Positions 2,811 to 29,115 of a stretch of 64,000 nucleotides of DNA are shown here, piece after piece. The notes beneath the pieces were generated by a model that saw only the letters and a list, made by a program, of their open reading frames with translations, was not told where the DNA came from and ran no database searches. Source of the DNA: Paremcibacter congregatus. GTDB taxonomy: Bacteria > Pseudomonadota > Alphaproteobacteria > Sphingomonadales > Emcibacteraceae. The stretch covers positions 899,501 through 963,500 of the forward strand of contig NZ_CP041025.1 of NCBI RefSeq assembly GCF_006385135.1, in the 5' to 3' direction. How positions within the stretch are numbered: the first letter of the stretch is position 1; every line of letters begins with the position of its first letter. The position numbers and the translations under genes were made by a program.

Positions 2811-4085
2811 TTATTTCAAGTATAAAGCAAATTTTCGCCATAAAGTGTCTTTTGCATTCTGCCCGGCGACCATGCTGACATGACCGCCTTCCATCACATG
2901 ATGGTCAAAGTGCGGTAATAATCTGATCAGCGCCTTCGCAGATGCGGGGGGAACGATGCGATCCCGGGTCGGGGTGATAAGGCGGCCCGGCAACCGCAGG
3001 GTCACGGGGTCGATTATTTGGCCGGCTATTTTCCACTGTTTTTCATGGGGTTGATTGTGTTTATACCATTTGATCAGGCAGTCTCTGGCCACGGGCGGCG
3101 CCAGCGGCGGAATGCGGGCGCTTTGAGGCGTTGCGGGAATGCTGTTTTCCCCATTGGCCCAGTCTTCGAGAGCGACAAAGTGCCGGGCGGCGTCGCTGTC
3201 GGGGTCAAGGGTGGCGAAATGGCGGAATTTGCGATCTGACAGGGTCGGATCGAGGGTGTAAAAAAACATCTGCATGATGTTGACCGGCGTGGGGGCGCGC
3301 AAGGCGGAAGCGGCTTCTATCTCAATAAATTTTTCTGTCAGGGCCGGTAAATGAACCGGCTGGTCGGCGTGGAAATCCCAGGGAGTCGCCATCAGGGTGA
3401 GACTGTGCAGCAGGTCTTCTTCCTGAAGGAGTTGGGCTGCGGCCAGACACAGGTTGCCGCCCATGCAATAACCGACCAAATGGATTTTCTGACCATGATG
3501 TTGATGCAAGCGGCGGATCAGCGGCATCAGGCGTTGGGTGATATATCCTTCAAGGTCAAAGGTCAATTCTTCCGGTCCCGGCAAGGTCCAGTCCAGAAGA
3601 TAAGGATGCAGCCCCTGATCGGCGAGACAACGAAGGAAGCTGTGGTCTTCCTGCAAGTCAAGCACGTAGGCCGGATTGACCAGCGAAGGCACAGCAAGAA
3701 CCAAAGGCGCATCGGGGGCGCTGTTTGGCGCGTAATCGCGGAGTTCGCTGCTGCCGATCGTCCCCTGTAACGGCATGACGGGAACGTTTCTGCGATAGGG
3801 ATGGTTTTGATAACGGGTCATGCCGTCAAGGGTTTCTTTAAGGCGCGTCTGGGCCTGTTTCATCACTTCAATTTGAACAGTCTTCAGGTCCTGCCCGCCG
3901 AGATCGCGATGAAGGTCGGCGGCTTGTGGTTTCAGAGAGGGATGTACCTGAAGACCGCCGAGCTGAAACAGCGGCAGGGCGGCGGCGGCGGCGAGCCAGT
4001 TCTGGGTCGTGCCCGCCACATGCAGGCTCAGAGGGTGGGGGCCCCGGCCCGTCGGGTTTTTAAGTTGTACCGTGTCGTCAGTCAT
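2811..4085 (-). CDS. Short PHA synthase-like alpha/beta hydrolase
   Basis: This protein belongs to the PHA synthase/alpha-beta hydrolase superfamily. The nucleophile motif is GYCMGG with Cys207 in place of the lipase Ser, as in true PHA synthases. Asp375 (PTRDRIVP) and His402 (GGHVSM) complete the triad, and LLDWTLP is also PhaC-like. I chose the ATG at 4085 because GGAAGA precedes it; an in-frame start at 4166 would add 27 residues with no better signal. At 424 residues it is much shorter than class I synthases (about 590) and longer than class III PhaC (about 355). It lies upstream of phbAB on the same strand, consistent with polymerising 3-hydroxybutyryl-CoA. It could instead be a PHA depolymerase-like relative, but the Cys nucleophile argues for a synthase. 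Confidence 0.75.
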   Translation of the reverse strand: MTDDTVQLKNPTGRGPHPLSLHVAGTTQNWLAAAAALPLFQLGGLQVHPSLKPQAADLHRDLGGQDLKTVQIEVMKQAQTRLKETLDGMTRYQNHPYRRNVPVMPLQGTIGSSELRDYAPNSAPDAPLVLAVPSLVNPAYVLDLQEDHSFLRCLADQGLHPYLLDWTLPGPEELTFDLEGYITQRLMPLIRRLHQHHGQKIHLVGYCMGGNLCLAAAQLLQEEDLLHSLTLMATPWDFHADQPVHLPALTEKFIEIEAASALRAPTPVNIMQMFFYTLDPTLSDRKFRHFATLDPDSDAARHFVALEDWANGENSIPATPQSARIPPLAPPVARDCLIKWYKHNQPHEKQWKIAGQIIDPVTLRLPGRLITPTRDRIVPPASAKALIRLLPHFDHHVMEGGHVSMVAGQNAKDTLWRKFALYLK

Positions 4086-24538: not shown

Positions 24539-26434
24539 TCAGGTGGCGAGGTTTTGCCGCGCGAGGAATTGATCAAACATCATCAGGGTCCAGAGCGGGG
24601 CGCTGTAATCGCGCAGGCCGGACTGATGTTGACTGACCAGGTGATTCAGGTAATCGGCGTTGAAATAGCCGCTGTCAAGCATGCGGTCACTGAGCACGGA
24701 CTGCTGAATATCCTGTTTTAATTCGTTACGGAACCATTTTCCGAGTGGCACCCCGAACCCCATTTTGGGGCGATAGAGAATATCATTCGGCAGACGACCT
24801 TCGAGAGATTTCTTGAAGATATATTTGCCTTCACCGTTGTGGAGTTTGAAATTGGAAGGCAGGGTGGCGATCCATTCCACCAGTTTATGGTCCAGAAGCG
24901 GCACGCGGACTTCCATGGAATTGGCCATAGAGGCCCGGTCAACCTTGGTCAGGATATCACCGACCAGATAGGTCTTCATATCGATATATTGCAAGATCGA
25001 CAGAGGATCGGTACTGCCCGACATGCCGCCATATTTATTAAACAGATCCAGAGTATTGTACCCTTGCAGGTCATTTTTGAGACCGTCGGAGAACAGCTGG
25101 GATCGCATATCGCCTTTCAGGATCGAAACGCCGTGGAAATAGCTTTCCACATGATCACGGGCAAGACCCTGGAAAGTCGTTTTGGCGCGGAACATGCGTG
25201 GCGCCCAGTCGGCTTTTGGATAGAGCTTGCCGAGGGTGCCGAAGACAGGCTTGCGTAAGGCGTCGGGGAAGATGCCGCGCAATTTCTGTTCGAACATTTG
25301 CAGCTGATAACGGCGGTAGCCGGCGAGATTTTCATCGCCGCCATCGCCGGACAGGGCGACGATCACTTTTTCCCGCGCCAGTTCGCAGACCCGGTAGGTG
25401 GGCAGGGCGGAACTGTCGGCATAGGGTTCGTCATAGATGTCGATCAGTTTGTTAACCAGGGAATAATCGCCGGGATCGACCATGCGTGACCAGTGATTTG
25501 TCTTGTAACGTTCGGCGACCCGCTGGGCATAGTCGGCCTCGTTATAGCTTTTTTCCGAAAATCCGATGGAACAGGTATTAACCGGGGTGTCACTGATATC
25601 GGCCATATCGGCGACCACAGCGCCAGAATCGACTCCGCCGGACAGGAAAGCGCCAAGCGGCACATCGGCAACCATGCGGATTTTTGTGGCTTCTCTGATG
25701 CGGTCCTGTAATTCGACCCGGGCATCTTCGAATGTGCCTTTATAGTCGCCGGTGAATTGTACGTCCCAATATTGGGTTTTCTCCTGCCGGCCGGATGCCA
25801 TGTCTACCAGGATACTGTAGCCGGGTTCAAGCTTGAAGACATTTTTGTAAATGGTGTTGGGTTCGGCGACATACCCGAGGGAAAAGTAATCTTCCATACT
25901 TTCCTTGCGCAGGTTCTTGACGAAATCCGGATGGGCGGTCAGGGCCTTCAGCTCGGAGCCGAACAGGATGGTTTTTTCCCCCACAGGCGCGTAAAAAAGC
26001 GGCTTGATGCCAAGCCGGTCACGGGTCATGAAAATCTGCTTTGTACGCTTGTCATAGATCACATAGGCGAACATGCCGCGGATGCGCTTGACACTGTCCG
26101 GTCCCCAGGCGTGATAGGCATACAGGATCACTTCAGTATCGCAGCGTGTGCGAAAACTGTACCCGAGGCCTTCCAGTTCGGCGCGCAGTTCGACAAAATT
26201 GTAAATTTCACCGTTATAAACAATGGTCACGTCTTCCGAGGCGCTGCTCATGGGTTGTTGGCCGCTTTTCAGGTCAATAATCGACAGGCGACGGTGGCCG
26301 AGGCCGATGCCATCATCCACATAAAGTCCCGCTTCATCAGGGCCCCGATGATGGATGGCATCCGTCATACGTTTGATGATTGCTGCGTCAGGTTTCCGGT
26401 CCAGCGATGTAATTATACCAGCTATGCCACACAT
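24539..26434 (-). CDS. asnB: Glutamine-hydrolysing asparagine synthase-like amidotransferase
   Basis: This 631-residue AsnB-type enzyme has an N-terminal Ntn glutaminase domain (nucleophile Cys2 in MCGIAG, RRLSIIDL, YNGEIYNF) and the synthetase domain with the ATP pyrophosphatase loop LSGGVDSG. The segment EDYFSLGYVAEPNTIYKNV closely recalls the exosortase-A-associated amidotransferase group rather than housekeeping AsnB. Such enzymes probably amidate sugars or peptides in exopolysaccharide assembly; asparagine synthesis remains possible. It is the first gene of the pair. Confidence 0.9.
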   Translation of the reverse strand: MCGIAGIITSLDRKPDAAIIKRMTDAIHHRGPDEAGLYVDDGIGLGHRRLSIIDLKSGQQPMSSASEDVTIVYNGEIYNFVELRAELEGLGYSFRTRCDTEVILYAYHAWGPDSVKRIRGMFAYVIYDKRTKQIFMTRDRLGIKPLFYAPVGEKTILFGSELKALTAHPDFVKNLRKESMEDYFSLGYVAEPNTIYKNVFKLEPGYSILVDMASGRQEKTQYWDVQFTGDYKGTFEDARVELQDRIREATKIRMVADVPLGAFLSGGVDSGAVVADMADISDTPVNTCSIGFSEKSYNEADYAQRVAERYKTNHWSRMVDPGDYSLVNKLIDIYDEPYADSSALPTYRVCELAREKVIVALSGDGGDENLAGYRRYQLQMFEQKLRGIFPDALRKPVFGTLGKLYPKADWAPRMFRAKTTFQGLARDHVESYFHGVSILKGDMRSQLFSDGLKNDLQGYNTLDLFNKYGGMSGSTDPLSILQYIDMKTYLVGDILTKVDRASMANSMEVRVPLLDHKLVEWIATLPSNFKLHNGEGKYIFKKSLEGRLPNDILYRPKMGFGVPLGKWFRNELKQDIQQSVLSDRMLDSGYFNADYLNHLVSQHQSGLRDYSAPLWTLMMFDQFLARQNLAT

Positions 26435-26563: not shown

Positions 26564-26593
26564 AAAAAAAAGCCCCGGTTGTGACACCGGGGC
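26564..26593 (-). terminator. Rho-independent terminator after the ABC operon
   Basis: On the minus strand the stem GCCCCGGTG / ACCGGGGC with a short loop is followed by eight T. It lies 45 bp beyond the permease stop. Confidence 0.92.
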
Positions 26594-26637: not shown

Positions 26638-27570
26638 TTACAGGCTCTTGCGTTTTCTGAGAACGATGGTCAGATAAAGCAGGGCGGCGCTCAACGCCAG
26701 GCCAAGCCAGAGTTCCGGGTCAGAGATGCTCTGAAACATGTCCAGCGGTGTCTGAAAGCTGATCTGTTCCATGCTCTGGCCATCCATATGGATATTGTGT
26801 TCGGTATTGATCGACAGGCGATTGGCGACAAACATCAGCAGATGGTTGGTATTGAAGAATAATTCTTCCATCAATGCTGCCAAGGCTACGGGAATGGTTG
26901 CCACCAGCAAGGGAGTGCGTTTGGCGACCACTGAGGCCAACATGAACCAGGCGAAGATCGGCAGGGACCACAAGCCATAGATGATGACGGCTGAAATTTC
27001 TGTCAACAACAGGGCTGGCAGGTTGCTTGATCCCCACAATAGTTCCCAGGCGCTGAATTCCGTGCCGATGGTAACGAAAGACCCGACAATTAACAGGAAA
27101 ACCTGGAAGATAAAGGTAAAGCCTATGGCCACCAGCGGAATAACCAGCATAACAGTCAACAGTTTGGAGGCCACTGTCTGCAGGTCGGACACGGGCATTG
27201 ATTTCCAAAACAGAATGCTGTTGTCCTTGCGTTCGTCATACAGACTGCCCAAGGCGGTAAAGACCATGCAGAACCAGACCCCGATGAAGACCGGCATATT
27301 GGCAGCCAGAAGTGCATGATTAAGGTGGTCACGCATTTCCTGGGCGTCACGTTCTGACATCGTTGAAATGAATTCACGCAGTGTGAAGGCTTCGTCGTCA
27401 ATATGGATGGACTGTCCGAAAATGCCCATACCGACGATGACGAGGGCCATGGCAAGCCCGGTGATGACCAGAGGCGTTGTGAAGATGGCGCGACGGTTTT
27501 CCCAGTATTCCCTGAGCATCAGGGTCTTGAAAGGGTTATACCCGTTTACTTTTACAATGGAGGCTAACAT
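26638..27570 (-). CDS. ABC-2 type transporter permease
   Basis: This 310-residue membrane protein has about six segments (TTPLVITGLAMALVIVGMGIFG, PVFIGVWFCMVFTALGSL, LLTVMLVIPLVAIGFTFIF, VIIYGLWSLPIFAWFMLA, LLVATIPVALAALM, and a C-terminal one). SLYDERKDNSILFWKSMPVSD is typical of ABC-2 permeases paired with YtrB-like ATPases. It has a good ribosome site (GGAGA). It is last in the operon gntR-ATPase-small gene-permease. Confidence 0.9.
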   Translation of the reverse strand: MLASIVKVNGYNPFKTLMLREYWENRRAIFTTPLVITGLAMALVIVGMGIFGQSIHIDDEAFTLREFISTMSERDAQEMRDHLNHALLAANMPVFIGVWFCMVFTALGSLYDERKDNSILFWKSMPVSDLQTVASKLLTVMLVIPLVAIGFTFIFQVFLLIVGSFVTIGTEFSAWELLWGSSNLPALLLTEISAVIIYGLWSLPIFAWFMLASVVAKRTPLLVATIPVALAALMEELFFNTNHLLMFVANRLSINTEHNIHMDGQSMEQISFQTPLDMFQSISDPELWLGLALSAALLYLTIVLRKRKSL

Positions 27571-27626: not shown

Positions 27627-27806
27627 TTACACCAGGCTACATTCGCTCAGCCAGCATGTGGCGGTTGTCCGGTTTTGTGACCCGTCATTGTTCGGGCCCG
27701 ACCTTTCTTTTTGTCCGGTAGGCATATTGGCCAGTCCACTGACAAGAAGAAGGGTAATGACACCGGCAACAATCAGAGCATGTGTTCTGGTGTGTGACGC
27801 AGACAT
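27627..27806 (-). CDS. Small membrane-anchored peptide inside the ABC operon (59 aa)
   Basis: This frame starts with ATG two bases after the ATPase stop codon, with GGAAGG nine bases upstream, and ends 56 bp before the permease start. The product begins MSASHTRTHALIVAGVITLL, followed by LVSGLANM, making one membrane span or signal; the polar remainder ends CWLSECSLV, with two Cys. I recognise no family. It could be a transporter subunit, a secreted peptide substrate or a small regulator. Position and ribosome site support it as a real gene. Confidence 0.65.
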   Translation of the reverse strand: MSASHTRTHALIVAGVITLLLVSGLANMPTGQKERSGPNNDGSQNRTTATCWLSECSLV

Positions 27807-27808
27807 GA

Positions 27809-28660
27809 TTAACGGCCTTCCATAAGGGTGACGAAAAGATCCGACAGGTTGATGCGGTTGACGTCGCCAAGTTCTGAAAGCTCTGCCCGGCTCCGGCCTT
27901 TGAAAATAAAGGAGGTCCGACCAAGCACGCTTTGTTCTGACACGGGGCCCAACGCGCGGGCGGCATCGACATTGGCGGCGGGGGGATTCAGCACCATCCA
28001 GTTTTCTCCAATGTCTTCCATATCGGCGGCAAGCACGATCTGGCCTTCACGGATGAAGACGACCTGGGACAGGATATTCTCAATCTCGTCCACCTGATGG
28101 GTGGTGATCAGAATGGTTCGGTCCTCGTCAAAGAAATCTTCCAGCAGATGATGGTAGAATTTCTTGCGGTAGATGATGTCGAGGCCAAGGGTTGGCTCAT
28201 CCAGAACCAGGATCTTGGCGTCGATGGACATGATCAGGGCCAGATGAACCTGAACGATCATCCCCTTGGACAGCTGGCGGACCTTCTTATCCAACGGCAC
28301 ACTTGTTTCTTTCAGGAAAGCCAGGGCCTTCTCGCGGTCAAAGCTTGGGTGAACGCCTTCGACAAAGTCGATGGCTTCATGAACCTTGATCCATTTTGGC
28401 AAGGTGGCGACGTCGGAAATAAAGCAGATTTCTTTCATTAGTTCGTCGCGCTGGCTGTAGGGATCAAACCCCAGGACTTTCAGGTCGCCGTCATAGGCGC
28501 TGAGGCCGAGAATGCTGTTGAGCAGGGTGGTTTTACCCGCGCCATTGGCGCCGATGATGCCGACGATCTGGCCTTTTTCGATGTTCAGGTCAACATTCTT
28601 CAGGGCTTTGAAATTGCCGTAAGATTTGCTGAGGTTCTGAGCGGTAATAATATTGGTCAT
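27809..28660 (-). CDS. ABC transporter ATP-binding protein (YtrB-like)
   Basis: This ATPase of about 283 residues has Walker A GANGAGKTT, a signature variant QLSKGM, Walker B ILVLDEPTLGLD, and the switch His in ITTHQVDEIE. I chose ATG 28660, which has GAGGAG six bases upstream, located just after the GntR stop. It energises the permease encoded downstream. Such GntR-linked exporters respond to envelope stress in other bacteria. Confidence 0.92.
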   Translation of the reverse strand: MTNIITAQNLSKSYGNFKALKNVDLNIEKGQIVGIIGANGAGKTTLLNSILGLSAYDGDLKVLGFDPYSQRDELMKEICFISDVATLPKWIKVHEAIDFVEGVHPSFDREKALAFLKETSVPLDKKVRQLSKGMIVQVHLALIMSIDAKILVLDEPTLGLDIIYRKKFYHHLLEDFFDEDRTILITTHQVDEIENILSQVVFIREGQIVLAADMEDIGENWMVLNPPAANVDAARALGPVSEQSVLGRTSFIFKGRSRAELSELGDVNRINLSDLFVTLMEGR

Positions 28661-28674
28661 GCTAGGCTCCTCGC

Positions 28675-29043
28675 TCAATGACTGGTGTTGTTTTCTGAGG
28701 CTTTGACCAATTCCTTGGGGTCAAGCCCGAGGCGGGAAATCCGTTTGATGATTTCGGGCCATTCCTCGGTGAGGAATTTTTCCTGTTCCGCTTTTAAAAG
28801 ATTCTTTTTGGCGCCTTCTAAGATAAACATTCCAAGACCTCTTCTTTTTTCTACCAGTCCTTCATCAACAAGCTCTGCATAAGCTTTGGAGGCTGTGATG
28901 GGGTTAATTTGATAATCCACGGCGACCTTGCGTACGGAAGGTAAGGCTTCGCCTTCTGTTAGAACCCCGTCCATTATCATGGCGAGGATCTGCTCCTTCA
29001 GCTGCAGATAGATCGGTTGGTCATTTTTCCACTGTGTTGCCAC
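28675..29043 (-). CDS. GntR-family regulator, YtrA subfamily
   Basis: This 122-residue protein has the winged-helix block DQPIYLQLKEQILAMIMDGVLTEGEALPSVRKVAVDYQINPITASKAYAELVDEGLVEKRRG in standard GntR order, written here in full only to locate it as residues 8-70, and a short C-terminal tail rather than an effector domain, as in YtrA. It starts at GTG 29043 with AGGA before it. It heads the operon and likely represses it through the repeat at 29092-29115. Confidence 0.93.
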   Translation of the reverse strand: MATQWKNDQPIYLQLKEQILAMIMDGVLTEGEALPSVRKVAVDYQINPITASKAYAELVDEGLVEKRRGLGMFILEGAKKNLLKAEQEKFLTEEWPEIIKRISRLGLDPKELVKASENNTSH

Positions 29044-29091: not shown

Positions 29092-29115
29092 AGTGTTGTA
29101 CAAAGATAGTACACT
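29092..29115. promoter_or_regulatory. Candidate YtrA-type operator
   Basis: An inverted repeat AGTGT ... ACACT with 14 bases between the arms lies 50-70 bp upstream of the gntR start. From memory, Bacillus YtrA binds AGTGTA-N13-TACACT, which is close. A nested near-palindrome ATAGTACACTAT is at 29106-29117. Confidence 0.55.

Follow-up and report, generated by a model that had tools for sequence, protein, structure and literature searches.

A conserved small membrane protein gene with a C-terminal cysteine pair between the ATPase and permease genes of an ABC transporter operon in Paremcibacter congregatus and its family

A small frame within a four-gene ABC operon

In Paremcibacter congregatus, a 59-codon open reading frame lies between the ATPase and permease genes of an ABC transporter operon. 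The question that it raises is whether so short a frame encodes a protein and, if it does, whether that protein is a subunit of the transporter, a signal or a substrate. The window, by which we mean the whole stretch of DNA that was analysed, comprises 64,000 nucleotides (NZ_CP041025.1, positions 899,501 to 963,500) of a 4.19-Mb genome that consists of a single contig. We found the frame as it had originally been described: it runs on the minus strand from ATG to TAA (27806..27627), starts two bases after the ATPase stop codon (TAA TC ATG) and is preceded by a Shine-Dalgarno-like GGAAGG (27816..27821, minus strand), which lies within the end of the ATPase gene, nine bases 5' of the start codon. 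Its 59-amino-acid product, which we call smallB, was also confirmed to have a single hydrophobic stretch (best 19-residue window from residue 10, mean Kyte-Doolittle value 2.22) and two cysteines near its end, at residues 51 and 56, in a tail that reads C-WLSE-C-SLV. In the predicted structure, a helix spanning residues 3 to 26 was fairly confident, while residues 31 to 59 had a mean pLDDT of 46 to 48, and we therefore left the structure of the tail uninterpreted.

The operon of the window comprises four genes on the minus strand, in the order YtrA-type GntR regulator, ABC ATPase, smallB and ABC-2 type permease, and is followed by a terminator-like hairpin. The regulator gene (28675..29043, minus strand) has a GTG start and encodes a protein of 122 amino acids, with a GntR domain at residues 12 to 74 (Pfam GntR, 6.9e-14) and 48 residues beyond it. 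In the excerpted sources, regulators of the YtrA subfamily are described as proteins of about 120 to 130 amino acids, about 50 of which form a C-terminal part next to a GntR DNA-binding domain (PMC6746942), and most of their genes as lying in an operon with an ABC transporter, their regulons consisting mostly of a single ABC operon (PMC4494728). The window regulator agrees with this description in its size and, by gene order, in sharing its operon with an ABC transporter. The ATPase gene is listed at 27809..28678 (minus strand; Pfam ABC_tran, 3e-22), and an in-frame ATG at 28660 is a likelier start than the listed TTG at 28678. Among NCBIfam models, PmtA ranked first for the ATPase and PmtR second for the regulator, and neither equivalog cut-off was reached (140.3 bits against 350 for the ATPase, 61.3 against 200 for the regulator).

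The permease gene (26638..27570, minus strand; 310 amino acids) was tentatively assigned from a Pfam ABC2_membrane_5 score of 24.2 bits, against a cut-off of 25, and from the neighbours of its structure model (pLDDT 74). The best alignments of this model were with chains of NosDFY, PmtCD and CcmABCD entries at VIA-align Z scores of 9 to 10, a level that VIA-align deems uncertain for helical bundles, in which the arrangement alone may match. A NosDFYL chain aligned with a Z score of 10.2 (rmsd 5.0, 222 residues) and PmtCD with a Z score of 10.0 (rmsd 5.2, 222 residues), and we read the CcmABCD chain among these neighbours as CcmB; the best Foldseek match of the model had an E value of 0.05. A possible role of the operon in envelope stress, which the original prediction assumed, is suggested by family resemblance, that is, by the YtrA-type regulator, the PmtA-like ATPase and the NosY/PmtCD/CcmB-like permease model. 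The hairpin, which carries a T tail and was located 3' of the permease gene by a hairpin scan (26572..26593, minus strand), is weak taken alone, since two were found in the region against a shuffle mean of 3.3. After it, on the same strand, follows a gene (window positions 24539-26434) that we take to be asparagine-synthase-like.

SmallB is under coding constraint and keeps an invariant cysteine pair

We surveyed 60 related genomes for the ATPase, which 45 of them hold at an E value of 1e-60 or better, and read all 45 loci (30 + 15); 26 belong to the same family as P. congregatus and 19 to other families of the order. Two Marinicella loci (L009 and L010) were inspected and excluded from the counts. 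The named relatives of the ATPase (seven loci, 77-88% identity) come from metagenome-assembled Alphaproteobacteria, two of them Emcibacter sp., and we term the family Emcibacter-like. The original prediction had staked the gene on the frame being unbroken in relatives, and a small frame was intact between the ATPase and permease genes at all 26 family loci. At the 19 loci of other families, the ATPase stop and the permease start were estimated to be -34 to +56 bases apart, and a gap of at most 56 bases is too short for a small gene. In one family genome (G017; L024:851-1456), two small proteins are encoded in tandem between the ATPase and the permease, the first without cysteine and the second with C-x4-C.

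Each of the 26 family smallB proteins ends in a C-x4-C tail, with exactly three residues beyond it in 25 of them, and their best 19-residue hydrophobic windows average 1.9 to 2.8. The cysteine pair is invariant across the 25 aligned rows, whereas identity to the window protein is merely 14-42%, and both cysteine codons alternate between TGC and TGT among the smallB genes. The window smallB is itself a divergent copy (25-42% identity within its own genus), and the middle of the protein is poorly conserved in the alignment. One smallB gene, which contains an N (L020), is absent from alignments A1 and A2 and included in the 26-protein tail count. Positive charge is higher in the N-terminal than in the C-terminal flank of the hydrophobic stretch in 24 of the 26 proteins, a bias that predicts topology only. 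By this bias, smallB would be a bitopic protein of the inner membrane with its N terminus inside and its C terminus outside, and the cysteine pair may form a disulfide in the periplasm.

The median pairwise dN/dS of smallB was 0.27 both in genus g1, which includes P. congregatus (57 of 66 pairs usable), and in genus g5 (34 of 55). The ATPase gave 0.07 and the permease 0.12-0.13 (8 of 55 pairs usable in g5); all of these values are rough, since many pairs are near synonymous-site saturation. The permease alignment (A5) was made without L020, L021 and L024. SmallB is under purifying selection and evolves faster than the permease and the ATPase, and, judged by its sequence in relatives, the frame is a genuine gene.

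We then compared the distribution of smallB with that of the transporter. At the E cut-off used, matches of profile A2 coincided with the ATPase across the 32 family genomes: all 26 ATPase-bearing genomes had smallB, and none of the six ATPase-less genomes did. Since 25 of these 26 loci had supplied the sequences for A2, presence follows by construction and only the absences test the co-occurrence; two of the six ATPase-less genomes (G018 and G025) are 99-100% complete and the other four 53-85%. An orthologue of the regulator (76-99% identical) was found in all eight ATPase-bearing genomes that were tested and in none of the six ATPase-less ones. This co-inheritance favours smallB as a partner of the transporter and would fit a subunit and a substrate alike. 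The original idea of a small peptide in an ABC operon is borne out as far as a real small membrane protein gene is concerned.

Neither Pfam nor NCBIfam offers a family to which smallB can be assigned. The window protein had no match at E ≤1 in Pfam or NCBIfam and none at E ≤0.1 in PHROGs. The other smallB proteins and their smallA relatives (see below) had matches below the cut-offs only (best E 0.0085 in Pfam and 0.0074 in NCBIfam), and the 13 matches of smallB to PDB sequences were all sodium channels (best E 0.69). Outside the family, a single-sequence search yielded weak matches (E 0.011 to 0.59). Profile A3, made from two smallB proteins and four of the second copies described below (smallB2), was the sole profile searched beyond the family, profiles A2 and A4 (smallA) being searched within it. 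Across 196 genomes of the order, A3 gave matches in 19; 18 of these belong to the same family, and the match outside it (G120; E 9e-4, two stops) is probably due to chance. In the class, with at most 13 candidates scored per genome, it matched one of 385 genomes, that of P. congregatus itself; distant relatives could be missed by this profile, since it fails on known smallB proteins (G010 and G019).

Two further ideas about the protein were rejected. In the own genome, a presumably Flp-like protein matched the profile weakly (E 0.0057); Flp pilins carry the cleavage motif G-x4-E, and since smallB is without it, we set aside a reading as a Flp-type pilin. A bond between the cysteines of smallB and those of the permease was considered as well. 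Three of 25 permeases (L022, L029 and L033) have no cysteine, in a count that was made without L024 and included L021 with 207 residues only, and the cysteine pair is therefore not needed for a bond to the permease.

Operator-like sites are shared with unlinked small-protein genes

Profile A2 also identified a second, unlinked small protein with the tail C-x4-C-KMV, smallB2, in four g1 genomes including that of P. congregatus (at about 3.09 Mb). Directly 5' of smallB2 lies the gene for smallA, a relative of smallB that lacks cysteine, and the proteins have in common an N-terminal motif around S-F-[LM]-[GS]-L. The smallA2-smallB2 pair of the own genome is located outside the window (G000:C1 3090510-3091095; L107:3008-3596), has two operator-like palindromes upstream and lies near a thiamine-pyrophosphate enzyme gene and what we take to be a GroEL-like gene. 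No ABC gene was seen near smallB2 in the stretches read around the copies of the four genomes. In G030, a second smallB occurs with a permease on contig C236 (L109); its protein is identical to that of G026, the copy may represent assembly contamination, and we left it uncounted.

SmallA is present in 24 of the 32 family genomes (E 0.01). It lies inside the ABC operon, before the regulator gene, at 10 of 11 g5 loci and in tandem before smallB in G017, and is unlinked elsewhere. The 13 unlinked g1 copies have a thiamine-pyrophosphate enzyme gene as neighbour in 11 cases and a hydroxyphenylpyruvate dioxygenase gene in eight (recognised by eye, one of each confirmed by Pfam), and the neighbours of unlinked g5 copies are different. 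Two genomes, G006 (85% complete) and G015 (77%), had smallA, while neither the ATPase nor the regulator was detected in them.

Upstream of the regulator gene of the window, we predicted an operator, GTGTTGTACAAAGATAGTACAC (29093..29114). It matches the 22-bp palindrome GTGTWNTA-N6-TANWACAC, which occurs with at most one mismatch 5' of the ABC operon at all 26 family loci and at 17 of the 19 others. YtrA sites are described, in the part of the source at hand, as long palindromes with GT and AC far from the centre (PMC4494728), and the predicted site has this shape. For the unlinked copies, 29 smallA matches were reduced to 18. We excluded the eight operon-linked ones (G019, G020, G021, G022, G023, G024, G026 and G027), the tandem copy of G017, a partial match within a 612-amino-acid frame (G007) and a match that is smallB itself (G016). 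Three of the 18 are weak profile matches (G023 and G024, E 4.4e-4; G019, E 0.0017, where a stop interrupts the match). A site lay within 300 bases upstream in 18 of 18 cases, eight exact and ten with one mismatch, against 0.06% of 3,600 shuffled stretches that reached one mismatch or better; the shuffles moved blocks of two bases and are a rough control, and the test is partly circular, since the consensus was written after both kinds of site had been viewed. When the 22-23 bases common to the ABC operons (half-site plus flank) served as the query, the best matches at the unlinked copies differed from it at 5 to 10 positions, and with up to three mismatches allowed, the ABC operon was the only match in the own genome.

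Throughout the own genome, the only exact palindrome is that of the ABC operon, and three more sites occur at one mismatch. Two of these precede the smallA2-smallB2 pair, by 58 and 167 bases, and the fourth site (695588) adjoins no clear gene. The number of sites is not enriched (four distinct sites against six for the reversed control at up to one mismatch), and as chance one-mismatch sites occur, the evidence is the location of the sites. In a search of 25 genomes, 12 of them of the family, for exact sites, extra family sites were found only in G005, G019 and G024, 44-68 bases before unlinked smallA; the reversed pattern was matched exactly in three of the 25 (G012, G047 and G058). The g1 site is mostly located between smallA and the divergent thiamine-pyrophosphate gene, which it could serve, and in g5 the site is kept where the neighbours differ. 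Two genomes of family f7, G054 and G058 (L181 and L182), also have exact palindromes at a distance from the ABC operon, near a frame that is presumably alpha/beta-hydrolase-like. Since the palindrome is common to the ABC operon and unlinked smallA, a small regulon of the transporter and small membrane proteins is predicted, and the small proteins are probably regulated together with the transporter.

Possible roles of smallB and comparison with known systems

We consider it about an even chance that smallB is a dedicated bitopic partner of the surrounding ABC-2 exporter with a periplasmic disulfide loop. Its single helix would pack beside the permease, and its periplasmic tail, looped by a disulfide that joins the cysteine pair, would gate or stabilise the exporter or couple it to a substrate or a periplasmic protein; both the regulation of smallB and its effect on transport are what we infer. 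This reading is supported by the fixed position between ATPase and permease, the co-occurrence, the C-x4-C tail, the charge bias and purifying selection, as well as by the precedent of CcmD and the CcmABCD chain near the permease model. It is weakened by the related transporters of other families, which are without smallB, by the faster evolution of smallB relative to permease and ATPase, and by the smallB2 copies of four genomes, which had no ABC gene in the stretches read around them and would be superfluous for a strict subunit.

The main rival is that smallB is the precursor of an exported peptide. Its helix would then be a signal or leader and the C-x4-C ring with its three-residue tail the product, moved or released via the exporter, and the GntR repressor would respond to it as PmtR does to its peptides. 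The fixed distance of the ring from the C terminus in 25 of 26 proteins and the poorly conserved middle speak for such a peptide, as does an SYA-like sequence after several g1 helices, a possible signal-peptidase site recognised by eye; by eye, however, no such site was seen in g5, and there is no processing or modification enzyme among the four genes of the window operon. The ranks of PmtA and PmtR among the NCBIfam matches point the same way, yet both scores are well below the cut-offs. Phenol-soluble modulin (PSM) peptides are described in the excerpted source as acting on their own exporter genes via a GntR-type repressor (PMC5080381). On balance, we regard an exported peptide as possible but unlikely. 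Alternatively, smallB could sense redox state or stress and control the exporter or the repressor, its invariant cysteine pair opening and closing with the periplasmic redox state. A GAF-domain gene (Pfam) is divergent to the operon in G021 (L025:173-637), and a similar GAF-like gene was recognised by eye in G017 (L024, about 2968-3430); we take these to resemble free methionine sulfoxide reductase. No such gene lies beside the window operon, however, and smallB has no further conserved cysteine or signalling domain; we judge a sensor quite unlikely.

We find it highly doubtful that the two small proteins, smallA and smallB, have a general and independent role in membrane stress and merely share a repressor with the transporter. 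Although unlinked smallA and the four smallA-smallB2 pairs carry the same predicted operator, in no family genome searched did the smallB of the operon occur apart from the ATPase, its position is unchanged at every family locus, and the two genomes with smallA and no detected ATPase or regulator are incomplete. A chance open frame in the spacer is hardly credible: the frame is short and the window copy divergent, but conservation at 26 of 26 loci, the dN/dS value of smallB and an invariant cysteine pair written in varied codons counter this explanation. Finally, smallB might be a membrane-tethered precursor from which the exporter presents or releases a disulfide-ringed C-x4-C-x3 peptide, with smallA as its partner and the YtrA-type repressor switching transporter, smallA and smallB together. 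We hold this to be decidedly unlikely; if true, it would amount to a new design of signalling or defence by peptides in Alphaproteobacteria.

The kind of system to which the operon belongs is already known, namely YtrA-type regulators with ABC operons and small regulons. None of the literature matches listed described, in title or abstract start, the Cys-tailed family, its pairing with smallA or the predicted regulon. The Emcibacter-like family adds an independent lineage to this kind: its small membrane proteins are linked to such a transporter through gene position, joint occurrence and a predicted operator, and the invariant cysteine pair offers clean point mutants, with which the role of the small proteins in these operons becomes testable. 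PmtR-PmtABCD, the phenol-soluble modulin exporter system, likewise combines a GntR repressor with an ABC exporter, and PmtCD is a neighbour of the permease model, but the scores found here are far below both NCBIfam cut-offs. Pmt has two permeases and two ATPases, where the window operon has one of each. A further paper, PMC13104710, is listed as dealing with a GntR-ABC efflux system of Acinetobacter and oxidative stress.

Within the YtrA subfamily, the ytr operon of Bacillus subtilis (excerpts of PMC12772383; operon also in PMC8060467) has a name that puts ytrG before ytrA, as smallA precedes the regulator gene at 10 of 11 g5 loci. It differs in containing more transporter genes, while here smallB with its C-x4-C tail lies between ATPase and permease, and the likeness to YtrG is one of gene position only. 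YtrASa of Sulfolobus acidocaldarius is also a YtrA regulator with a very small regulon, which consists, according to the excerpted source, of its own operon and one distant membrane-protein gene, to which a gene linked to the operon in another species is related (PMC6746942). Where the window operon has ABC genes, the YtrASa operon has a membrane-protein gene, and its likeness to smallA and smallB is by description only. A precedent for a partner is CcmD, a protein of about 70 amino acids with one helix that interacts with an ABC complex (PMC3884852). Like CcmD, smallB is small and has a single predicted span, and it may interact with the exporter as CcmD does with its ABC complex. Unlike smallB, CcmD is described in the excerpted source as having a periplasmic N terminus and no conserved sequence features (PMC3884852), whereas smallB is predicted to be oriented the other way and carries its invariant cysteine pair.
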